From NCBI GenBank assembly GCA_018004935.1, contig JAGNBF010000001.1:62001-126000 (forward strand): a stretch of 64,000 nt of DNA. The letters run 5' to 3'. The notes beneath the pieces were generated by a model. It was not told the origin of the DNA. It was given only the letters and a program-made list of their open reading frames with translations, and searched no databases. A program made the position numbers and the translations under genes. The DNA is from Chloroflexota bacterium (GTDB lineage: Bacteria; Chloroflexota; Anaerolineae; Promineifilales; Promineifilaceae). Numbering within the stretch: position 1 is the stretch's first letter; every line of letters begins with the position of its first letter. Of this stretch, positions 35,251 to 35,372 are shown piece by piece.

Positions 35251-35372
35251 GGGGGCGTAGCTCAGTGGTAGAGCAACGAAATACCCACACCACCCCTTGT
35301 CCGTTTCCTACGGGCCGAAGGCCGTGGGTTACCTTAGCACGTTGGTCACAGGTTCGATCCCTGTCGCCCCCT
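35251..35372 (+). ncRNA. tRNA-shaped RNA with a Y-RNA (Ro-binding) stem in place of the anticodon arm
   Basis: The acceptor stem GGGGGCG (35251-35257) pairs perfectly with CGCCCCC (35365-35371), T follows as discriminator. D arm GCTC-AGTGGTA-GAGC (35260-35274) and T arm ACAGG-TTCGATC-CCTGT (35348-35364) are canonical and the variable loop TGGTC fits. No 7-base anticodon loop exists. Instead a long hairpin runs from 35276 to 35342: TACCCAC pairs with GTGGGTTA, and CCTTGTCCG (35295-35303) pairs with CGGGC-CG-AAGG (35311-35321) leaving a CG bulge, capped by TTTCCTA. CCGAAGG followed by GTGGGTTA is the Ro-binding strand of Y RNAs. So this looks like a circularly permuted Y RNA. Expression is unproven. 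Confidence 0.7.

Follow-up and report, generated by a model that had tools for sequence, protein, structure and literature searches.

Within a stretch of 64 000 nucleotides of DNA from a Chloroflexota bacterium, the whole of which is termed here the window, positions 35251-35372 carry a transfer RNA shell into whose anticodon stem, on the 5′ side, a Y RNA hairpin is inserted, its strands in reversed order. This architecture is conserved, with covariation, and it is genetically tied to Ro60. The element is probably the gene for a tRNA-embedded Y RNA (tRNA-Y), a structural class in which the partner RNA of Ro60 is built on a tRNA chassis; it would be made by the tRNA maturation machinery and is predicted to bind Ro60. 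The genome, of 8 Mb, has Anaerolineae (Chloroflexota) among its nearest relatives.

A tRNA shell with a reversed Y hairpin

The Rfam tRNA model (RF00005) matches 35251-35372 (+ strand) over its full length with 50.1 bits, for a cut-off of 29, and its alignment leaves a stretch of 61 nt within the anticodon arm. All the features that follow lie on the + strand. The acceptor stem begins with GGGGGCG (35251-35257) and pairs at 7 of 7 positions with 35365-35371, in the tRNA model as in the alignments to covariance models R1 and R2; its 3′ strand CGCCCCC, followed by discriminator T, occupies 35365-35372, and CCA is not encoded. The tRNA model further places the D arm (GCTC-AGTGGTA-GAGC, 35260-35274), the T arm (ACAGG-TTCGATC-CCTGT, 35348-35364) and the base of an anticodon stem, where ACG (35276-35278, tRNA positions 27-29) is paired with CGT (35340-35342). 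The minimum-energy fold is made of a 7-bp acceptor, a 4-bp D stem, a 5-bp T stem and a long hairpin; its energy (z = -1.58) is by itself weak evidence. Model and fold agree with the preliminary description, which had seen a 7/7 acceptor and canonical D and T arms. What makes a tRNA is present in the 7-bp acceptor, the D arm and the T arm with its TTCRA loop, and in the relatives described below the pairing of these features is 98.8-100% (model alignment). The anticodon stem-loop is missing from the window's copy, the basal pairs ACG/CGT being intact. That a hairpin replaces the anticodon arm, as first proposed, must thus be reworded: the hairpin is inserted in the 5′ strand of the arm, the basal pairs stay, and many relatives keep the whole anticodon stem-loop.

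The inserted hairpin reads CCCACACCACCCCTTGTCCGT-TTCCT-ACGGGCCGAAGGCCGTGGGTTACC. Its first strand, CCCACACCACCCCTTGTCCGT (35284-35304), pairs with 35310-35329 and is the strand that comes last in a Y RNA, its signature being that of the 3′ strand of the ordinary Y RNA at 35799-35872, where CTTGTCCG stands last. The capping loop TTCCT (35305-35309) is given by the fold. The second strand, ACGGGCCGAAGGCCGTGGGTTACC (35310-35333), carries the Ro60-recognition motif GGNCCG-N9-RGTTAYC at 35312, found by a motif scan at 35484, 35619 and 35805 as well. The first strand (CCCAC...CCCTTGTCCGT) being the closing strand of ordinary Y RNAs and the second bearing their opening motif, the Y strand order is reversed. 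The earlier proposal that the 3′ strand of the hairpin is the one which Ro60 recognizes in Y RNAs, in reversed order, is thus upheld both by the fit of the motif and by the match with the strands of 35799-35872. Two traits of a bacterial Y RNA are found here, namely a GGNCCG-N9-RGTTAYC strand paired with a CTTG-NCC strand, in a gene that adjoins Ro60. In relatives, the median loop of the Y hairpin is 4 nt, often a tri- or tetraloop, which means that the Y stem is one continuous hairpin and that the ends of the RNA can only lie at the acceptor.

We also looked for a downstream partner of the Y strand in canonical order: the candidate, 35443-35458, pairs by eye only weakly in the upper stem and was rejected. 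Just 5′ of the element, an inverted repeat (GGCCGTGGTG / CACCACGTGCC, at 35201-35210 and 35232-35242) has in its loop ACGAAATACCCAC, in common with the first strand of the Y hairpin; it may be what is left of another Y element. A search upstream of the window's tRNA-Y gave no promoter of the sigma-70 type.

The Ro60 locus of the window

The Ro60 (Rsr) gene, at 35923-37530 on the + strand, codes for 535 residues with a TROVE domain (PF05731, 9e-41) and a Ro60 vWA domain (PF25045, 9e-69). The protein is about equally close to vertebrate Ro60 and Deinococcus Rsr, scoring 479 bits against Xenopus Ro60 and 458 bits against D. radiodurans Rsr. The tRNA-Y gene lies 551 bp upstream of it on the same strand, with ordinary Y RNAs in between. 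These are, on the + strand, a YrlA-like Y RNA (35481-35589) in the usual order, with the Y stem at its ends, a T arm (35524-35540), an acceptor hairpin (35541-35562) closed by TTCG and no D arm, read from the sequence and from weak Y_RNA and nematode sbRNA matches; a recognition-strand motif at 35619-35640 (motif scan), possibly belonging to a further Y RNA with an uncertain 3′ boundary; and a minimal Y RNA (35799-35872) devoid of a tRNA domain, matching nematode Y-like sRNA (RF01656) with 34.1 bits and E 2e-4, below the cut-off of 38. The two topologies, tRNA-Y and YrlA-like, thus stand side by side within 340 bp. At permissive settings, Rfam has no family for the chimera and returns only tRNA, with weak nematode Y-like and Y_RNA matches for the neighbours. 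Downstream of Ro60 is an HNH endonuclease gene (38630-39238), which comes again directly after Ro60 in a relative (L088, 5856-6419).

Relatives and covariation

Relatives were sought with the pattern AGAGC-N22-52-GGNCCG-N9-RGTTAYC-N8-38-GTTCRANYC, which fixes only the end of the D stem, the Y motif and the T loop. It matched once in the 64 kb window, never in 100 shuffles, and elsewhere in 15 viral contigs and 69 stretches of bacterial genomes, where a rough estimate would give about 7 matches by chance in the genome collection. Among 90 non-identical matches, 65 have at least 6 of 7 acceptor pairs together with a T stem, and the signature of the Y closing strand is upstream in every one of these 65. 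Acceptor, T stem and the pairing of the Y hairpin are not fixed by the pattern, and yet they all agree. Pattern scan and covariance models together yield more than 70 tRNA-Y RNAs from seven or more bacterial phyla and from phages; hosts include Myxococcota (Sorangium, Minicystis, Polyangium), Chloroflexota, Armatimonadota, Verrucomicrobiota, Gemmatimonadota, Cyanobacteriota and Actinomycetota. With the window left out, 70 relatives served to make a covariance model, and this model gives the window's element 92.7 bits (E = 9.4e-21); against the first covariance model, the highest-scoring ordinary tRNA of the window's genome reaches 58 bits. Among the pattern hits, L052, L079, L100 and L116 appear to be chance matches or other RNAs: three of them lack a convincing acceptor and Ro60 is near none. 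Blastn of the 122-base element against phages returned only short tRNA fragments.

Some loci deserve mention for their own sake. Plasmid pAQ7 of Picosynechococcus sp. PCC 7002 (L193) has three tandem tRNA-Y or tRNA-Y-like genes (4533-4656, 4681-4787 and 4813-4935), directly upstream of the TROVE gene SYNPCC7002_RS15900, with CCA encoded after the first copy; the locus is at 163022-163424 of NC_010474.1, minus strand. In relatives of the window's genome (L003, 1-1080; L006; L102, 1700-3920), Ro60 and Y RNAs come after a long array of tRNA genes, and tRNA-Y is inside or beside the array. In the cultured Microbacterium phage Zooman, a tRNA-Y-like gene that bears no annotation (L135, 1071-1208; 48.9 bits) precedes Ro60 by about 2.9 kb. 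Three further loci (L146, L147, L148) have, upstream of a tRNA-Y at 1501-1608 and on its strand, additional tRNA-like genes of 131-132 nt, in which one and the same arm holds a divergent Y hairpin as well as another long hairpin (ATGTGCTTCGGCACA), beside a divergent Ro60.

Compensatory changes, on which the preliminary description had made its claim depend, are abundant in two alignments. An independent MAFFT alignment, of 36 sequences, shows changes on both sides in 7/7 acceptor pairs, 4/5 T-stem pairs, both basal anticodon pairs, and 6/8 upper and 4/8 lower pairs of the Y stem, with 88.5% of cells paired against 36-51% when partners are slid. The second alignment, of 70 model-aligned sequences without the window, leans to the model; there, all 7 acceptor pairs are changed on both sides (98.8% paired), as are 4/5 pairs of the T stem and 7/8 in each of the upper and lower Y stems. 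Overall it is 91.3% paired and 507 of its cells are doubly changed, where shuffles give 156; the basal anticodon pairs covary again. We relied on this alignment-based covariation and dropped the best 9-mer pairing of the Y stem with strands of other species, a poor test because the Y strands are biased in purines and pyrimidines.

It had been envisaged from the outset that relatives might turn out to be normal tRNAs interrupted by random DNA. A tRNA pseudogene broken by stray DNA would fit with the fact that ARAGORN calls no tRNA at 35251-35372 and that the window's copy has no anticodon; the relatives, however, share one architecture across many phyla, with covariation in every varying helix and a constant linkage to Ro60, so that this reading is refuted, with next to nothing left in its favour.

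Genetic tie to Ro60

A profile made from the window's Ro60 finds Ro60 in 72 of the 84 pattern loci that were fetched, the query having contained nothing of Ro60, and in 59 of 59 cases tRNA-Y and Ro60 are on one strand. Across 400 genomes of the phylum, where a match longer than 100 nt was taken as tRNA-Y, 11 have tRNA-Y and 17 a clear Ro60 (20 with weak matches to the vWA domain only). All 11 are among the 17, each pair close together on one contig and one strand (hypergeometric P about 1e-17, a value inflated by shared ancestry). The 59 genomes of the relatives' search tell the same: tRNA-Y is in G000, G002, G007 and G021, and Ro60 is in these four and in G034, whose contig is cut. At 14 loci with a full-length Ro60, tRNA-Y is the sole Y motif seen, which suggests that it can be the only Y RNA. 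One lineage of Chloroflexota has, in the same place, a divergent Ro60 (about 25% identical) with a tRNA-Y of divergent Y motif.

Ends of the RNA and the anticodon loop

In 10 of 63 genes the discriminator is immediately followed by CCA, which occurs in 0-2 of 63 at each neighbouring offset. This position, together with acceptor covariation, indicates that the genes would specify a mature 3′ end of the tRNA type. An RNA opened at its acceptor and closed at its Y stem would owe its ends to the tRNA pathway and not to the Y stem. The CCA encoded in relatives favours the early suggestion that RNase P, RNase Z and CCA addition have access to the RNA; processing by RNase P and at the 3′ end is predicted.

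Following the hairpin, 29 of 64 tRNA-Ys, where shuffles give 2.1, have a stem of three or more pairs that carries a loop of 7 nt with U at position 33 and a purine at position 37. The anticodons vary widely and include the unusual ACT and ATC; the window's copy has no anticodon loop. Even with tRNA-Y left aside, every one of the 20 amino acids has an ordinary tRNA in the window's genome, so that decoding is unlikely to be what this RNA is for. The same fact bears on the idea that the Y hairpin is an intron-like insert, excised before the halves are joined into a working tRNA. It is true that the hairpin interrupts the anticodon stem in its 5′ strand, after about position 28, and that in many relatives (L049, L076, L115) the sequences on either side of it would pair into a perfect anticodon arm. 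Such a tRNA is not needed for decoding, however; in most tRNA-Ys the anticodon arm is missing, acceptor and anticodon do not vary together, there is no linked splicing endonuclease, and the hairpin bears the Ro60 motif, all of which makes splicing very improbable.

In the main rival account, tRNA-Y would serve in conflicts over RNA damage, as a decoy or as a sensor: held by Ro60, this mimic of an anticodon loop would absorb anticodon nucleases or report on them, and damaged molecules would be passed to a ligase or an exonuclease. The preserved anticodon-type loops just described, with their many anticodons, speak for it, and so do the loci in tRNA arrays and phages, the presence of RtcB near four of them, and the decoy role proposed for YrlA (PMC7790460). 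Against it, the loop is lost in over half of the tRNA-Ys, including that of the window, and RtcB is absent near most loci. We regard a decoy as unlikely, though far from negligible, and keep to the tRNA-embedded Ro60 partner as the better account.

YrlA and other related RNAs

YrlA combines a Y stem at the RNA ends with a tRNA-like domain (PMC8394870), and its structure aligns to tRNA by circular permutation (PMC11472068). In Gordonia phage BearBQ, the order of YrlA is Y strand, anticodon 3′ part, T arm, CATCGGAC-GCGA-GTCCGATG, D arm, Y strand; rotation of this order gives tRNA-Y. The preliminary description had proposed that the RNA is a circular permutant of YrlA, and phage YrlA genes in exactly the rotated order, with a loop-closed acceptor, confirm it, in line with the structural alignment. 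BearBQ and Mycobacteriophage ET08, both considered as hosts of tRNA-Y, were set aside, as both have the YrlA order. Their YrlA genes (L131, 3726-3865, in BearBQ; L132, 3637-3830, in Mycobacterium phage ET08) are unannotated, have full tRNA content with the acceptor closed by a short loop, and adjoin phage Ro60 genes.

In its parts, YrlA (Salmonella; PDB 6CU1) is like tRNA-Y: a Ro60-binding stem with a GGNCCG...GGTTAYC strand, a T arm, a D arm and an acceptor-like helix, all of them found in tRNA-Y, in a gene next to Ro60. The topology differs: YrlA has its Y stem at the ends and its acceptor closed by a loop, whereas tRNA-Y has a free acceptor end, with CCA encoded in some, and a capped Y stem. 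As the topology that defines YrlA is absent, tRNA-Y is a Y RNA by motif and locus, and not a YrlA.

Could tRNA-Y be an illusion, created by the 3′ half of one YrlA and the 5′ half of the next? Tandem Y RNAs do exist, and short-spaced tandem tRNA-Ys hold a possible YrlA reading between them, as do near-identical copies with matching acceptors (L074, L094, L130). In the window, however, there is neither Y motif nor T arm upstream of tRNA-Y, 14 loci have a single Y motif, and RNA ends could not be accommodated in loops of 1-5 nt. Furthermore, tandem copies with different acceptors (L069, L073, L122, L193) pair 7/7 with their own partner and 4-6/7 across, which argues that selection keeps the tRNA-Y topology and not the YrlA reading between copies. 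For the class as a whole the illusion is refuted and its probability is minimal. The tandem tRNA-Ys with matching acceptors would offer a ready route for permutation, in whichever direction evolution may have gone.

Simple Y RNAs (animal RF00019, nematode sbRNAs RF01656, the Y RNA of D. radiodurans) share the conserved Ro60-binding stem and motif with tRNA-Y, but they have no tRNA body and their stem is made by the RNA ends. Conversely, tRNA (RF00005) shares the acceptor, D and T arms, the TTCRA T loop, the GG of the D loop and U8; tRNA-Y departs from it by its size (108-183 nt), the Y hairpin inside the anticodon stem and an anticodon that is often lost. Two other RNAs come to mind. Matured by tRNA enzymes, tmRNA has tRNA-shaped ends on a longer non-tRNA RNA; tRNA-Y has such ends too, but neither reading frame nor pseudoknots, its insert being a stem of the Ro60 type. 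Some algae and archaea have permuted tRNA genes from which a normal mature tRNA is made; in tRNA-Y, also a case of circular permutation, the tRNA order is normal and it is the Y stem which is permuted.

Very abundant RNAs have been described near an Rsr-like gene in phage CKA15, related to Listeria phage P100 (PMC12282133). P100 was examined as a case of tRNA-Y expression and rejected: the tRNAs that model R1 detects in it are all ordinary ones, and Pfam assigns the protein to DUF7788/DUF2828, so that the CKA15 RNAs say nothing on tRNA-Y. Upstream of its Rsr-like DUF7788/DUF2828 gene, P100 (L197, 28092-30100) has repeated short elements with the box GCAATTACTA, a noncoding RNA group of unrelated appearance in the tRNA region.

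This RNA, in the initial view one of an undescribed type, is no single oddity but a widespread class, a description of which was not found in a full-text literature search whose reach stopped short of the primary YrlA papers, and Rfam files tRNA-Ys only as tRNA. It is somewhat unlikely that the form was already noted earlier.

A possible role and its meaning

In the scenario that we favour, tRNA-Y would be transcribed together with the neighbouring Y RNAs or tRNA array, then trimmed by RNase P and the tRNA 3′-end enzymes, CCA being added or encoded. It would be kept as a stable RNA, attached through its hairpin to the outside of the Ro60 ring. The tRNA body, as is thought for the tRNA domain of YrlA, might shield the ring and recruit or exclude tRNA-binding partners (exoribonuclease, RNA ligase, modification enzymes). 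This function of the body we infer by analogy with YrlA, for which a role has been proposed with Rsr and PNPase or RNA ligase (PMC7790460; PMC8394870). RtcB was confirmed near only four loci. The link to tRNA quality control put forward in the preliminary description is conjecture.

The tRNA shells endowed with a Ro60 hairpin, often in or beside tRNA arrays, account in simple genetic terms for the resemblance to tRNA of the most conserved Y RNA of bacteria, and they offer a path for the origin of YrlA via circular permutation. A tentative view, which we hold to be less likely than not, is that nature has a single Ro60 RNA in two forms related by circular permutation. Of these, the form with tRNA ends would perhaps be the older one, a tRNA having gained a Ro60 hairpin, while tandem duplication and a shift in processing sites would have led to YrlA; it would then be a true product of tRNA maturation, with its CCA, wiring Ro60 directly into tRNA processing, charging or repair. 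Rfam and tRNA finders now file tRNA-Y genes as odd tRNAs or miss them. The question of Ro60 and tRNA in bacteria becomes testable in culturable hosts: Sorangium cellulosum, Minicystis rosea, Polyangium fumosum and the genetically tractable Picosynechococcus PCC 7002, with its three copies beside Ro60 on plasmid pAQ7.
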